Shown piece by piece: positions 8,133 to 14,212 of a stretch of 64,000 nucleotides of DNA; the first letter of the stretch is position 1, and the number at the start of each line of letters is the position of its first letter. The notes below the pieces were generated by a model that saw only the letters and a list, made by a program, of their open reading frames with translations, was not told where the DNA came from and ran no database searches. The stretch is from Methanobrevibacter sp. (lineage in GTDB: Archaea; Methanobacteriota; Methanobacteria; Methanobacteriales; Methanobacteriaceae), in the NCBI GenBank assembly GCA_017407115.1, contig JAFQXD010000004.1, positions 1-64,000 of the forward strand. Direction: 5' to 3'. The position numbers and the translations under genes were made by a program.

Positions 8133-8642
8133 TTAATCAACATACACTACAAATTCATCCAATTCTTTTCTGGGAGTTTCACGAGGTTCCGCATTGCCAT
8201 AACCAAGTGGAGTGAATAATACTGCCTCTTCATTTTCCTCTAGATTTAAGAATTTATGAGCTTCATATTTTTTAAATGCTCCAATGTAGCAAGTTCCAAG
8301 ACCCACGTCCTGAGCTGCCAAAATCATGTGGTCCATAACAATTGTCGCATCAATGTCTGCGATGTTTTTGCCGTCCCATGGCCTGGTCCATGCCTTATCT
8401 TTTATAGCTACAACGCATAAAACATAAGGAGCTTCTATAAACCATTTTGCCCCATAGATTTTTGATAATTCCTCCTTATGCTTTTTAGTGTCAATTACAT
8501 AAACTTTAAAAGGCTGATAATTTACCCCTGTTGGAGCAATGGTTGCCGCTTTCAAGACATATTCCAATTTTTCCTTTTCCACTTCCTTATCCAAGTATCC
8601 CCTTACACTATATCTTTCGGATATAACATCAATAAATTCCAT
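8133..8642 (-). CDS. Nitroreductase family FMN oxidoreductase
   Basis: This 169-residue nitroreductase-fold protein starts MEFIDVISERYSVRGYLDKE, with the Arg-Tyr-Ser-Val-Arg FMN-binding motif. It has APTGVNYQPF in the middle and GTCYIGAF plus a PLGYG-like motif near the C-terminus. Such enzymes reduce quinones, nitro compounds or flavins with NAD(P)H. The start at 8642 is chosen because GGAGG lies 8 bases before it, inside the last codons of the upstream citryl-CoA lyase-like gene. The overlap argues for co-transcription. The substrate is unknown. Confidence 0.9.
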   Translation of the reverse strand: MEFIDVISERYSVRGYLDKEVEKEKLEYVLKAATIAPTGVNYQPFKVYVIDTKKHKEELSKIYGAKWFIEAPYVLCVVAIKDKAWTRPWDGKNIADIDATIVMDHMILAAQDVGLGTCYIGAFKKYEAHKFLNLEENEEAVLFTPLGYGNAEPRETPRKELDEFVVYVD

Positions 8643-9447
8643 CGTATCTTCCTCCTTCATATATTATGTCATCAAGGTCACAAAAACGTCTGAATTCCTC
8701 CTCTTCCATATTTTCCTCATGAATATGGGCTATGATTCCCGGAACCCTGCCTATTATAAATATGCCTAATCCCAAATCCGGAGTGAATCCCAAATCTGAT
8801 AAAATTGCGGCATTTGCACCATCAACATTAAGTCTTATATTCTTTTTTTCATGGATTAAATCCTCTAAAGCCAAGGCCAATTTGATATGAGGCCCAATGA
8901 ACCCTTCCTTAATAACAAGCTCCATTAATTTATCCGCTCTTGGATCAACATTATGATATCTGTGTCCGAAACCCGGAATCTTTTGTTTGTCAATGTACTC
9001 ATTATAAACATCAATTGCCAGACTTGCAATCTGCTTATTGTCGATGCCTGAATCTCCAGTATGATAAATTGAATTTATTTTTGATTGATACAGTTCCATT
9101 GTCTTTTCAATGGCGCCTGCATGCTTATGTCCAAAAGACAACAATGCGCCAGCTACTGCAGAATTCATTGGCGAACCTGAGGACGCAACAAGTCTTGCGG
9201 TTTGAGTGCTCGGCGGAGTCGCACCATGGTCACAAAATGAAACCAAAACATGATTAAATATTTTGCCCTCTTTAGGAGACGGCAATCTTCCTTTCAAAAG
9301 CAAATAGATCATGTCGCTATAACGGATTTTTTCAATCAAATCCCTTTGATTATATCCTCTTGTCACTATTTTATCCTCTTCAACACGAGTAATAGCTGTC
9401 TTTAAAGAATGAGGATTAACTCTGAAATTATTTTCTTGCATTTTCAT
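8629..9447 (-). CDS. Citryl-CoA lyase / short citrate synthase-like protein
   Basis: This 272-residue protein has the small form of the citrate synthase fold. The three catalytic positions look conserved: the first His in SFGHKHAGA, the second in PGFGHRYHNVDPRA, and the Asp in NVDGANAAIL. A C-terminal IIGRVPGIIAHIHEE motif follows. It lacks the N-terminal part of full citrate synthases, as citryl-CoA lyases do. Expected chemistry is cleavage or formation of citryl-CoA or a methylated analogue. It sits downstream of a fumarase alpha-type gene and a PrpD-type gene, so a tri- or dicarboxylate pathway is likely. Direction and substrate are unknown. Confidence 0.85.
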   Translation of the reverse strand: MKMQENNFRVNPHSLKTAITRVEEDKIVTRGYNQRDLIEKIRYSDMIYLLLKGRLPSPKEGKIFNHVLVSFCDHGATPPSTQTARLVASSGSPMNSAVAGALLSFGHKHAGAIEKTMELYQSKINSIYHTGDSGIDNKQIASLAIDVYNEYIDKQKIPGFGHRYHNVDPRADKLMELVIKEGFIGPHIKLALALEDLIHEKKNIRLNVDGANAAILSDLGFTPDLGLGIFIIGRVPGIIAHIHEENMEEEEFRRFCDLDDIIYEGGRYDGIY

Positions 9448-9485
9448 GTACCTTTTAAATTGATTGATTAATAATTATATAATTT

Positions 9486-10358
9486 TCATAACTTTAATGT
9501 TGCTACTCTTGGTTCGACAAAACAAGATGGCCTGACCGCAACGATTCTAACACCACTTGCCCTTTGATTGCCTATATTCACATAAGAACCCAAAACTGTT
9601 GTTTTTCCACCTAATCCCAAAGGACCTATTCCTGTTTCATTCAATTTTCGAGCAACATAACTTTCAACATCACTCTGACTATCCAAACTGCCGTAGACAA
9701 TTGATTTTAGAAGCAAGGCATTAGCTTCAAAATGTGTCCTTCCAATGCCTATTGAAGGAATTGATGGTGTACATCCCAATAAATTCAATGAATCGCTTAA
9801 CCACCCCACTGCAGTGTCAATAACATTATAAAAAGAACGCTTATGGTATACTCTGTAAGTTTTGGCCCTAATTTCAGGACCCCCTCCTTCAAGAATAAAA
9901 TGAATATTTAAAGTATCTGGAGCAATGTCTCTTTTATAAGTTGAATCATCATTTTGAGAATCTATTAAAACAGATGCCGGTTTTAGCATTCCTGGACTGT
10001 CAAACAAACCTTCACTCTGTTCTATCCTTTCAATTTCATTGCCTTTAACGGCCATTGGTCTTGCAGGAAGACTGTTTAATCCCAACTCAATTCCATCATG
10101 AATTTGATTCAATAGATTGGCTGAAATTTCCCTTTCACGCCCCAATTCAATGATTACATGGGGAATTCCAGTATCATCGCATAATGGGAATTTGGTTTTA
10201 TTTGCCACTTTATAGTTTTCCAAAATTTGAGACAGTGCCCAGCGGGCATTTTCGCTTTCTTCACTTTCAATTGCCTTAGACAGCGCATTTAATTTATCAT
10301 CACTCAGTGTGGTTGATGCTTCTATGATTTTTTTAGAAATATCATCAATAATACTCAT
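9486..10358 (-). CDS. Fumarase / tartrate dehydratase alpha-type subunit, stand-alone
   Basis: The 290-residue protein matches the alpha domain of class I (4Fe-4S) hydro-lyases. It has the three expected cluster cysteines, in PLCDDTG, LLGCTPSIPSIGIGRTHFEA and VRPSCFVEPR, and the GIGPLGLGGKTTVLG signature. The start at 10358 follows a GTGAT ribosome binding site and lies 4 bases after the stop of the U32-like gene. Upstream in-frame codons would sit inside that gene. The beta subunit, which normally carries part of the active site, is not in this cluster, so either it is encoded elsewhere or this protein works alone. Confidence 0.88.
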   Translation of the reverse strand: MSIIDDISKKIIEASTTLSDDKLNALSKAIESEESENARWALSQILENYKVANKTKFPLCDDTGIPHVIIELGREREISANLLNQIHDGIELGLNSLPARPMAVKGNEIERIEQSEGLFDSPGMLKPASVLIDSQNDDSTYKRDIAPDTLNIHFILEGGGPEIRAKTYRVYHKRSFYNVIDTAVGWLSDSLNLLGCTPSIPSIGIGRTHFEANALLLKSIVYGSLDSQSDVESYVARKLNETGIGPLGLGGKTTVLGSYVNIGNQRASGVRIVAVRPSCFVEPRVATLKL

Positions 10359-10362
10359 AAAA

Positions 10363-11265
10363 TCACTCAGGAACAGACAAATCATCGGATTGGTTTGGAG
10401 ATGGAATTGCATCCGGACAGTAATTATCAATCATTCTTTTTACAAGCATTACCTGTTTTATGCGAGCTTTTGCTTCTTTTTCAGTCGTATCCCAATTATG
10501 ATTGGCTGCAACAGATCCCCCTGTTTTTAGATAAACCGGAGCTGCCACATCAATAAATTTAGGAACTTCATAATGGCGAATAAATCCTCCGGTGGATTTT
10601 GGATTTTCGGTGTGCAAATCAATAGCCATATCTACAGCATTTCTAATGGCTGCAATCATTGGAATTTGCAAGTCTCTTACCGGATTTAAGGAATTCAAAC
10701 CAGTATTTTCAAGCAATTTTGCAGATGCAGGGTTTGAATGACCTGCATGGGCGGAAAGTTTGAAGTGAGTATTATTAGGAATTTCACCTGAGCTCCTCAT
10801 CTTATTTAAAACCCAAAGAAGACCTTCATCATATAAAAGTATTCCCCGAACGCCCAAATCACATGCACGTTTCACATCTTCAATTGCATAAACTAAATTA
10901 TCATAACCTCGAAGCCTATAACCGATTCTGCTTCCTTCCTTTGTATGAACGGTAGCTGAGGTATCATATGTTGCTCTTGGCCCTACAGATAAAAACAATT
11001 CACATCCATATTTTATAGCCAAATCCACCATTTCCATGATTTCGCTATCACTTAAAAGCATTATTCCTTTTGTTTGAGTGACTCTGTGGATAAAAACATC
11101 ATCTTTTTGAGATTCTTCAAGTAGAGTTTTCATTGTTTTTGGAGATTGGATTCCTGGAACCTCAAAACGATACTGCCCCCCATCATCAAACCTTTTGGAT
11201 GAGCTGAAATCGCTTAAAGTCTCTTCAATCCCAATTTTTTTTAAAAATTCTTTTGTTTTATCCAT
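10363..11265 (-). CDS. Peptidase U32-like TIM-barrel protein
   Basis: This 300-residue soluble protein resembles the barrel of the U32 family. It has alternating strand-helix units and a KLSAHAGHSNPASAKLLENTG segment like the U32 'ancient' barrel. The family's Cys-containing motif is absent, so a true peptidase or hydroxylase activity cannot be claimed. It starts 5 bases after the stop of the PrpD-type gene and is followed by the fumarase-type gene, so it is part of the same operon. Its role there is unknown; an accessory or substrate-specific lyase role would fit. Confidence 0.7.
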   Translation of the reverse strand: MDKTKEFLKKIGIEETLSDFSSSKRFDDGGQYRFEVPGIQSPKTMKTLLEESQKDDVFIHRVTQTKGIMLLSDSEIMEMVDLAIKYGCELFLSVGPRATYDTSATVHTKEGSRIGYRLRGYDNLVYAIEDVKRACDLGVRGILLYDEGLLWVLNKMRSSGEIPNNTHFKLSAHAGHSNPASAKLLENTGLNSLNPVRDLQIPMIAAIRNAVDMAIDLHTENPKSTGGFIRHYEVPKFIDVAAPVYLKTGGSVAANHNWDTTEKEAKARIKQVMLVKRMIDNYCPDAIPSPNQSDDLSVPE

Positions 11266-11270
11266 AATAT

Positions 11271-12677
11271 CTACTCATTTAATTTTTGAACAACATATTT
11301 CATAGAATACTCTTCAATAGAATCAATGACAGTTAGATTTCTTATATCATATAAAGGATTATTAGCTTTGAACTTGTCAATCAATTCACTTAACTTGTAC
11401 GGATTTTCGAAATCCCCTTTTGGAAGCAATGTTATATTTTGAAATACCCCATTCCTAAATGCCTTATCCAATTTAATAATAACATTAGACGGCCTTTTGT
11501 TGGGATATAACTCATTTAATTTATCGTCACTGAGAATTATCATCCTATTAGCAAGATTTTTAATGCTGTTTACCTTATCAACAGTAGAATAATTATCCAA
11601 AAGACCATATTCAATTAATTGATCTATATCATCAACAGTGACTTCACCTACAACCAGAGAAATAGCAACAGCATAAGGAAGTGACTGCTTTAACTCTTCC
11701 TTATTTTTAGGGTTGAAATTATTGTGTTCAGCTGCAACATCATATGTTTTAACGGCAATATTTTCAATATGATCATATTCATCACCTATACTTGCCTTTA
11801 GCTTTAATGCAGTATCGATTGATGAGTGAATATGCCTGCAGAACGGATATTTTTTAAAGTAGATATCCCTTACCCTTACTTTTCCAATGTCCTTTAAAAC
11901 ATTTTCGAATGAGAAATCGTCAACATTAAAATTCTCATCATGAACCATTGCATTTAAGAATCCTTCTTTTCCTTCAAATATGGTTGCGCTTCCTGTAAAT
12001 CCGTTTCTTGCAAGAAATGCAGATATGATTCCATTATAGACTGCCTTACCAACATGCAATGATTTTCCCATAGACCCTCCATGGTCGGATTCCAGAAGTC
12101 CTGCGGCCTGAGTTCCGCTTAAACCCAATGCATTCATTATTTGTTCATCATCAAGTTTCAATAACTTTGAAGCAACAGTTGCGGCAACAAATGTGCCTAT
12201 AGTTCCCGTGGTGTGAAATCCCTTATTCCTATGTTCAGGATTTACAATTTTTCCAAGTAAAATTCCCACTTCATAACCAACAATGACCCCCTCTAAAAAT
12301 TCCTTTCCGCTTAAATCAAAACTTTCAGAAATTGCTAGTGCGGTTGGAAAAATAACAGACCCCAAATGGATTTGTGCGCCCCGATGTCCATCATCCAGCT
12401 CCAAAACATGCGCGGAAACACCATTTAAGAACCCTGCACTTAAAATATCAGTTTTTAGATTTCTTCCTATAACCGAAGCTTTTAAATTTAAATTCAAGTT
12501 TCCAGAAAATATTTCTTCAACTGTATTAAAAGCTATTTTTGAAGCATCTTCATTTGCTCCTCTGTAAGTTACTCCAAAAAAATCTAAAAAAGCAGCTTTT
12601 ACAGTGGTGATGGATTCCACAGTTGCTTGTTCATAACGATAGTTTGAAATAAATTTAGAAATATTTTTTAAAAACAT
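11271..12677 (-). CDS. MmgE/PrpD family protein (2-methylcitrate dehydratase-like)
   Basis: This 468-residue protein has the family landmarks: LELDDGHRGAQIHLGSVI, GLSGTQAAGLLESDHGGSMG, and KKYPFCRHIHSSIDTALKL. The family includes 2-methylcitrate dehydratase (PrpD), cis-aconitate decarboxylase and iminodisuccinate epimerase, so the exact reaction cannot be read from sequence. The start at 12677 follows AGGTGT. It lies between the DUF3100-type transporter-like genes (69-base gap) and the U32-like gene (5 bases). Confidence 0.88.
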   Translation of the reverse strand: MFLKNISKFISNYRYEQATVESITTVKAAFLDFFGVTYRGANEDASKIAFNTVEEIFSGNLNLNLKASVIGRNLKTDILSAGFLNGVSAHVLELDDGHRGAQIHLGSVIFPTALAISESFDLSGKEFLEGVIVGYEVGILLGKIVNPEHRNKGFHTTGTIGTFVAATVASKLLKLDDEQIMNALGLSGTQAAGLLESDHGGSMGKSLHVGKAVYNGIISAFLARNGFTGSATIFEGKEGFLNAMVHDENFNVDDFSFENVLKDIGKVRVRDIYFKKYPFCRHIHSSIDTALKLKASIGDEYDHIENIAVKTYDVAAEHNNFNPKNKEELKQSLPYAVAISLVVGEVTVDDIDQLIEYGLLDNYSTVDKVNSIKNLANRMIILSDDKLNELYPNKRPSNVIIKLDKAFRNGVFQNITLLPKGDFENPYKLSELIDKFKANNPLYDIRNLTVIDSIEEYSMKYVVQKLNE

Positions 12678-12746
12678 AAAACACCTACTCATAATATATG
12701 TAAAAATACCATTAAATAGTTAACTTTTGATATTCAAAAAAAATAT

Positions 12747-13238
12747 TTAAACCGCAGGAACGCCAGTTAAAACAAGTACAATGTGTGCCACAATAGCTGC
12801 ACCATAATAAGTAGCTGCAATAACTAAAATAGTGATTACAACTGCTCTCCAACCTAAAGCCTTGAATTCATCCCAGCTTTTACCCATTCCAATACCCACA
12901 TAGGCTAAAAATACAGTGACAATAGATAAAAGTTCCACATGAGAAACATAATAAAGAACAAATTCAGATGTTGGCATTCCAGGAAATGCAATTAAAATAC
13001 CGATAACACTGATATACAGAATTGATGAAATGTTAAACGGAAGTTCTCTTTCAAGCCATACACCAATCAGAGTAATTAAAGATAATATCCCCATTCCTAT
13101 TAGAGAATCTGTCATTGGATGTTTATACCCTAGATAGTTACCGATTACAGTAATAATTGAGAAAATAATCAATAGCAAAATCCAATTAAAAATACCATGG
13201 ACTGAAACGTTTTCAGAACCGTCAATTAAATCAGGCAT
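12747..13238 (-). CDS. Membrane protein, likely partner of the DUF3100-type protein
   Basis: This 163-residue protein has about five or six membrane helices and a conserved-looking KSWDEFKALGWRA loop before the last helices. Its ATG overlaps the stop of the preceding gene (TAATG), and both are hydrophobic carriers of matching size. Together they may form one two-subunit transporter, or the split halves of a larger carrier. Position at the head of the PrpD/lyase run suggests a carboxylate substrate; this is inference. Confidence 0.75.
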   Translation of the reverse strand: MPDLIDGSENVSVHGIFNWILLLIIFSIITVIGNYLGYKHPMTDSLIGMGILSLITLIGVWLERELPFNISSILYISVIGILIAFPGMPTSEFVLYYVSHVELLSIVTVFLAYVGIGMGKSWDEFKALGWRAVVITILVIAATYYGAAIVAHIVLVLTGVPAV

Positions 13239-14116
13239 TATTCATCCTCCGTTTCAGGCACTAACGCTTCTCTGCCAATTTTAGGTTCTAACCAATCATA
13301 TATTTTTTCCGTCAATGGCAATGCAACAAATATTACAATATAAATACCTACACAGAATGAAAGCAAGTTACTGAATCCGGCAAATGCCTCAATTTGAGTT
13401 TCCAACCCTGGAAATGCAGCAAGAGTTGGGCCGATTGCTGCCGCATTCATACTTGCACTACCTACACCGCTGGCCATAGCAAATGCATATGGATGGAGAG
13501 GTAAGAAAGATAATGAGAAAGTAACAAGGAAACTTATGAATATAGTACCAATTACGGTACCTATAATAAATATCGCAAATACTCCTCTGGATTCTGCAGA
13601 ATTAAATCCGTATTTATCAACGACAACAGCAACGTTAGGTTCCCTACCTATGGAATTAGTCATGCCTATAGCTTCTTTTTTAAATCCTAAAAGCAATGCT
13701 ATTGGAAGTACCAGGATAGTTGCCAAATGTCCTAATTCCTGTAAAATCAATGCAGGACCCATCTTAAAAATCAAACTTATTGACTGGCCACTTGAAACCG
13801 CTAATTTTGCAATTAAAACACCGATAAAAAGCATCATTGCCCCTTCAGCAATACGGGCCTGCTTTCTTTGAATCCATTTTATTGGCTTTGCCAAATAAAA
13901 AACAAGACCTAAAATAATTGTATATATCAAAGGCATTATCGTGATTGCAACGTCATGAGTGAGTGGAATTTTAATTGTGCCAATTAATTCCGCAATAATT
14001 ACTAAAATAAGTACAGTACCGTGTAATCTGTAATCTCTCCACGGATTTTTCTTTAAGATCCTTTTATCGGTTTTTTCACGATAAATATGCTCAACTTGAC
14101 CATCCTTATTAGGAAT
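13238..14116 (-). CDS. DUF3100-type membrane protein, probable carboxylate carrier; no AUG start
   Basis: The reading frame is open from the stop at 14129-14131. The first ATG (13936) would begin inside the membrane region and drop a plausible N-terminus ending in NPWRDYRLHGTVLILVIIAE, which contains the first helix. No ATG, GTG or TTG exists in frame between 13937 and 14128. An AGGAG site lies 9 bases before an ATT codon at 14116, which I take as the likely start (293 residues). About eight membrane helices follow, with GSASMNAAAIGPTLAAFPG as a family-like motif. An alternative is start damage or a one-base frameshift near 14113. Confidence 0.65.
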   Translation of the reverse strand: MPNKDGQVEHIYREKTDKRILKKNPWRDYRLHGTVLILVIIAELIGTIKIPLTHDVAITIMPLIYTIILGLVFYLAKPIKWIQRKQARIAEGAMMLFIGVLIAKLAVSSGQSISLIFKMGPALILQELGHLATILVLPIALLLGFKKEAIGMTNSIGREPNVAVVVDKYGFNSAESRGVFAIFIIGTVIGTIFISFLVTFSLSFLPLHPYAFAMASGVGSASMNAAAIGPTLAAFPGLETQIEAFAGFSNLLSFCVGIYIVIFVALPLTEKIYDWLEPKIGREALVPETEDE

Positions 14117-14212
14117 ATGAATCCACTCCTAGTAACAATATAAATTTATATTTGTATAATAATAATTTCTTCAAACTCAATATATAAATTAATATCATTC
14201 AAAATTAAAAAA

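Follow-up and report, generated by a model that had tools for sequence, protein, structure and literature searches.

A conserved gene set of Methanobacteria that probably makes the tetracarboxylic tail of methanofuran

Introduction

The first step of methanogenesis uses methanofuran to accept CO2, and in Methanobacteria this coenzyme is capped by 1,3,4,6-hexanetetracarboxylic acid (HTCA), or 4,5-dicarboxyoctanedioic acid. We describe here a set of five genes that probably makes this acid. Four of them form a conserved row, encoding an MmgE/PrpD-family protein (PrpD-type), a TIM-barrel enzyme, a divergent alpha subunit of class I fumarase (FumA2, or alpha2) and a short citrate-synthase-like (CS-like) protein. 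The fifth, located elsewhere in the genome, encodes a second fumarase beta subunit (beta2, or FumB2). The row was found in a window of 64,000 nucleotides, positions 1 to 64,000 of contig JAFQXD010000004.1 from Methanobrevibacter sp. (assembly GCA_017407115.1).

HTCA consists of two C5 (glutarate) skeletons joined alpha to alpha. HTCA-type tails are known from Methanobacterium, with a hydroxylated form in M. smithii, and glutamates are found in Methanosarcina and Methanococcales. Work on M. thermautotrophicus Marburg (PMC1224877) described the acid, under the name 1,3,4,6-tetracarboxyhexane, both as a component of methanofuran and as one of the main solutes of the cells. Methanofurans share a core, covered by the enzymes MfnA-F, and differ in their side chains only (PMC11365854). 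In the literature that we searched, we found no gene or enzyme assigned to the HTCA tail.

Results

The core of four genes and its distribution

We surveyed the source genome (2.96 Mb, 121 contigs) and compared the locus across 31 related genomes and 20 loci from other genera. Across Methanobrevibacter, Methanobacterium-type genera, Methanothermobacter and Methanothermus (the probable identity of genome G049), the genes for the PrpD-type, TIM-barrel, FumA2 and CS-like proteins follow one another in the same order on a single strand. This synteny is kept in all families sampled outside Methanobrevibacter, and the usual flanks are a tRNA-Ile2 agmatinyltransferase-like gene on one side and the A-type ATPase genes ntpH/ntpI on the other. 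A TnpB/IS605-type ORF is inserted between fumA and the CS-like gene at one locus (L039:11830-13086, genome G013), both genes being intact.

Matches to the TIM-barrel profile were obtained in 129 of 152 Methanobacteria genomes, representing 19 of the 20 genera in the class, so that the initial view of the cluster as non-standard in methanogens does not hold for Methanobacteria. Among the 23 negative genomes, three are less than 75% complete and the other 20 belong to a single genus (g26), which we take to be Methanosphaera. The closest homologue, 91% identical, is found in a metagenome-assembled genome of a rumen Methanobrevibacter. The protein is present throughout the remainder of the Methanobacteria and was not found in 11 other archaeal genomes; it also occurs in Clostridia (see below).

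A second beta subunit encoded in trans

The fumarase beta subunit was at first thought to be absent. In fact, the alpha (PF05681) and beta (PF05683) families are each present twice in the source genome, and the second, divergent beta gene (166 aa) lies at G000:C109:28748-29245, separate from the core cluster. Beta2 co-occurs with alpha2, and the idea of a missing subunit was rejected. FumA2 itself is 28% identical to the canonical alpha subunit on contig C111; its Cys60, Cys196 and Cys279 are invariant in our alignment, and the three conserved Cys residues of this family are the ligands of a [4Fe-4S] cluster. A survey of 11 further Methanobacteria genomes found two beta genes in every one, as against none or one in six other archaea. 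The beta2 gene is found in all genera other than Methanosphaera, in which only the canonical beta1 gave matches (about 1e-11 to 1e-19). The pairing of alpha2 with beta2 is supported by the adjacency of their orthologues in Clostridia. In one Methanothermobacter genome (G047, L086:7481-8010), the beta2 frame is disrupted, as two bases present in a strain of 98% identity are missing; either a mistake in early sequencing or a frameshift of recent date is the probable cause.

The surroundings of beta2 are informative. It adjoins mfnA, downstream and on the same strand, at 18 loci from 11 genera, at distances ranging from overlap to approximately 1.4 kb. The mfnA product, which decarboxylates tyrosine in the methanofuran pathway, is clearly identified (TIGR03812, 551 bits for a cutoff of 299). 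At seven loci, from Methanobrevibacter and two sister genera (g1/g17/g20), beta2 is instead divergent from korDABC-sucC, which code for 2-oxoglutarate:ferredoxin oxidoreductase and succinyl-CoA synthetase. The kor genes were rejected as a universal context of beta2, being limited to these three genera, whereas the mfnA linkage is broader. Together, the two neighbourhoods point to methanofuran synthesis and 2-oxoglutarate supply.

Joint loss in Methanosphaera

The TIM-barrel, CS-like and beta2 genes are jointly absent from 20 of 20 Methanosphaera genomes, and they are present, with few gaps, in the other genera where completeness is high. Methanosphaera retains MfnB in all 20 genomes and MfnA in the 13 tested, with mfnA adjoining ppsA in nine of them and no beta2 nearby. 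The genus thus appears to make the core of the coenzyme but to have lost this part. It is devoid of molybdopterin synthesis and hence of a working formylmethanofuran dehydrogenase (PMC6120340), and it is the only lineage sampled in the class that cannot reduce CO2. Conversely, M. filiformis and Methanovirga still have CS-like and beta2 genes in the genome although their cluster has come apart, which indicates that the genes are retained even where linkage is lost.

Features of the core proteins

The CS-like protein (272 aa) scores above the curated cutoff of NF004866 (414 versus 245 bits) and matches citryl-CoA lyase 6hxp with an E value of 1e-49. It does not qualify as a full-length 2-methylcitrate synthase, given its length and its score of 96 bits for a TIGR01800 cutoff of 421. 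His109, His162 and Asp209, at the positions of the CS catalytic triad, and Arg234 are invariant, and the triad aligns with those of 1a59 and 6hxp. The gene is the sole match to the CS-like profile in the source genome. Second CS-like copies are found in f3, g29 and g30, and one Methanothermobacter genome has two unlinked copies (L035:7967-8809 and L248:6022-6960), 99.9% identical over 747 nt, the second one near phosphate-transport genes. Their near-identity suggests recent gene conversion.

The PrpD-type protein reached only 43.7 bits for the TIGR02330 equivalog cutoff of 458; its nearest solved relatives are IDS-epimerase (2hp0) and an IRG1-like protein of B. subtilis (7bra). The TIM-barrel protein belongs to no Pfam or NCBIfam family above threshold, and a search of the PDB with its profile yielded chance matches only. 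Its identity across orders is 63-67%. An AlphaFold2 (AF2) model (pLDDT 87, pTM 0.87) submitted to Foldseek retrieved the class II aldolases YdjI and TagBP aldolase first, with template modelling (TM) scores of around 0.5, and the U32 protein Mk0906 ninth. The score for Peptidase U32 (PF01136), 17.2 bits, is below the gathering cutoff of 22.4, and the U32 identity was rejected on both counts. This was the only one of the initial family assignments to fall, the others being upheld. Since the likeness to aldolases is limited to TM scores of about 0.5, any reaction proposed for this enzyme is a guess.

A related module in Clostridia

A scan of GTDB species contigs identified 475 encoded relatives of the TIM-barrel protein, and the best 80 of these 475 include seven from Clostridia, which are 64-66% identical. 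Maximum-likelihood analysis places the clostridial sequences together with full support, separated from the archaeal ones by a long branch. Most of the clostridial loci encode one or more PrpD proteins, an aldo/keto reductase, a phosphonopyruvate-decarboxylase-like protein, the TIM barrel, a PF15617 C-C bond lyase, FumB2 and FumA2. Three of them (L215, L217 and L220) are glycan loci, and a fourth (L219) lies between two TRAP-type permeases; the exopolysaccharide loci also contain genes for an ATP-grasp ligase, an aminotransferase and a flippase. Both the tree and these loci indicate that the module is transferable and that its product need not be specific to methanofuran.

The full row of seven ORFs

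All seven ORFs initially annotated in the region 8133-14116 were confirmed, each on the minus strand (Table 1), with intergenic spacings of -32 to +54 nt. Scans for promoters and terminators gave signals no better than chance.

Table 1. The seven ORFs of the locus, with positions in the window
Feature	Position	Strand	Evidence
Nitroreductase-family flavoprotein; conserved neighbour, non-core	8133..8660	-	PF00881
Short citrate-synthase-fold, citryl-CoA-lyase-like protein (CS-like); core gene 4	8629..9447	-	NF004866, 414 bits
Class I (Fe-S) fumarase/tartrate-dehydratase alpha, divergent second copy (FumA2); core gene 3	9486..10358	-	PF05681, 170 bits
TIM-barrel enzyme, predicted aldolase-like; core gene 2	10363..11265	-	AF2 model, Foldseek
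MmgE/PrpD-family dehydratase/isomerase/decarboxylase-type enzyme; core gene 1	11271..12692	-	PF03972, 236 bits; PF19305, 93 bits
Small membrane partner of DUF3100; neighbour, non-core	12747..13238	-	Adjoins DUF3100a
DUF3100 membrane protein (DUF3100a); neighbour, non-core, start uncertain	13238..14116	-	PF11299, 281 bits

For FumA2, the ATG at 10358 is favoured over a TTG at 10430. The start of DUF3100a is less clear, as there is no ATG, GTG or TTG from the beginning of the open frame at 14128 down to 13936, and homology extends upstream to about 14113. Its small partner gave no match in Pfam or NCBIfam.

The idea that the seven genes constitute one functional operon was not borne out, as only the middle four form a conserved unit, and we rejected the seven-gene unit because the nitroreductase and DUF3100 genes are spread independently. 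Both occur in genomes devoid of the core, and the core occurs without either; accordingly, we treat them as non-core. A nitroreductase orthologue is present in Methanosphaera at 54-64% identity, although the core is missing there; four Methanothermobacter genomes and G161 gave no match at E<=1e-10. Only 5 of the 20 genera carry DUF3100; Methanosphaera is one of them, with the gene in all 20 of its genomes. The scattered, unlinked distribution named at the outset as evidence against the cluster thus applies to these neighbours, and not to the four core genes. The pair formed by DUF3100 and the small membrane protein (12747-14116) is frequently duplicated in tandem and is limited, within the class, to five genera including Methanobrevibacter and Methanosphaera.

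Discussion

The reasoning that a dehydratase, an Fe-S hydro-lyase and a CS-fold lyase belong to one route of carboxylic acid metabolism holds up. By analogy with the chemistry of the methylcitrate cycle, HTCA is the type of product to be expected from a citrate-synthase-like condensation followed by a PrpD-type dehydration. We propose a scheme whose substrate, order of steps, TIM-barrel reaction and reductase we infer. The CS-like protein, the TIM-barrel enzyme or both would condense a C5 acyl-CoA with the 2-oxo group of 2-oxoglutarate, yielding a higher homologue of 2-methylcitrate, a kind of acid handled by Fe-S hydro-lyases and PrpD-type enzymes. The PrpD-type protein and the FumA2/FumB2 Fe-S hydro-lyase might then remove or move water to give a tetrasubstituted, aconitate-like alkene, which a reductase encoded elsewhere would saturate. 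Ligation of the finished acid to the coenzyme's glutamyl chain would presumably follow. The synthesis of an unusual carboxylic acid, one of two options initially put forward, is supported by the synteny of the core, the linkage of beta2 with mfnA and kor, and the joint loss in Methanosphaera.

The other option, that an external carboxylic acid is taken up by a DUF3100 carrier and broken down by the adjoining enzymes, now seems improbable. The DUF3100 pair does adjoin the enzymes on one strand in many Methanobrevibacter, and the clostridial homologue at L219 is flanked by two TRAP-type permeases. Nevertheless, the core is present in genera without DUF3100 (15 of the 20 lack it), including the CO2-autotrophic Methanothermobacter and Methanothermus, and DUF3100 persists in Methanosphaera without the core; carrier and nitroreductase are both dispensable. 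We give even less credit to a citrate- or methylcitrate-type route of central carbon metabolism, such as a variant oxidative branch of the tricarboxylic acid cycle. The co-occurrence of a CS fold, PrpD and an Fe-S hydro-lyase has to be set against the fact that no other CS-fold protein was matched in the genome and against PrpD scores far under the equivalog level, and neither the loss along with CO2 reduction nor the mfnA linkage fits such a route. The methylcitrate cycle proper was rejected on the equivalog scores. A more serious contender, although still unlikely, is that the set makes another acid or cofactor part specific to Methanobacteria, for instance for the cell envelope or the tungsten/molybdenum cofactor, and that this too was lost by Methanosphaera, the neighbourhood of beta2 and mfnA reflecting co-regulation only. 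Eha, Fdh and the synthesis of molybdopterin are indeed among the other losses of Methanosphaera (PMC6120340), and the clostridial module in exopolysaccharide loci shows that the product can serve other ends. However, the two independent linkages of beta2, with mfnA and with kor, both fit HTCA, which is the known polycarboxylic acid of these cells.

Several points weigh against the assignment to HTCA. The mfnA linkage belongs to beta2 and not to the four-gene cluster. The scheme is built on genes, and it leaves the source of the C5 acyl-CoA donor unexplained. The isotope-labelling study of HTCA published by White in 1987 may contradict a C5+C5 scheme. Relative to Methanobrevibacter, Methanosphaera is without several hundred genes, which makes the co-loss, taken alone, a weak argument. 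Finally, the step catalysed by the TIM barrel and FumAB is not unique to methanofuran, as Clostridia, in which methanofuran is not expected, carry the module. It is mainly this transferability, with a product not necessarily specific to methanofuran, that keeps our confidence in the synthesis of HTCA only somewhat better than even.

If the assignment is correct, it would account for the conservation of the cluster across rumen and human-gut Methanobrevibacter and for its loss in Methanosphaera. The candidate set of five genes, including an enzyme family without a Pfam or NCBIfam name, makes the origin of the HTCA cap directly testable and is a methanogen-enriched target for work on livestock methane. 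There is perhaps an even chance that the genes described here are the first to be found for methanofuran's tetracarboxylic tail, that they define a methylcitrate-like route involving a new family of TIM-barrel enzymes, and that the TIM and FumAB module, which gut Clostridia carry too, may serve those bacteria in making a related polycarboxylate of surface glycans.

Comparison with known systems

The proposed pathway resembles the methylcitrate cycle (PrpC/PrpD) in combining a CS-fold enzyme acting on a C-C bond with a dehydratase of the MmgE/PrpD family whose substrate is a citrate-like acid. It differs by its short CS of the citryl-CoA lyase form, its non-equivalog PrpD and the absence of PrpB from the cluster; it adds an Fe-S hydro-lyase and a TIM-barrel enzyme, and it is probably biosynthetic. 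The CS-like protein shares its length, fold and catalytic His/His/Asp with citryl-CoA lyase (6hxp, NF004866), but the cluster does not encode a partner citryl-CoA synthetase, and the gene context points to another substrate. As in two-subunit class I fumarases and tartrate dehydratases, a PF05681 alpha subunit with three conserved Cys residues is accompanied by a PF05683 beta subunit. The difference is that this is a second, divergent pair in addition to the canonical fumarase, with alpha and beta genes at separate loci, and its substrate is probably a substituted malate or fumarate.

The clostridial module is close to the set of Methanobacteria, with 64-66% identity for the TIM barrel, 45-53% for FumB2 and 35-43% for FumA2. 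There, a CitE-like PF15617 lyase replaces the CS-like protein, a thiamine pyrophosphate (TPP) decarboxylase and an aldo/keto reductase are added, and the methanofuran context is missing. As for the Mfn pathway (MfnA-F), it is found in the same taxa and is connected to the set by the adjacency of beta2 and mfnA; the Mfn enzymes make the APMF-Glu core, whereas the genes described here are proposed to provide the HTCA tail.

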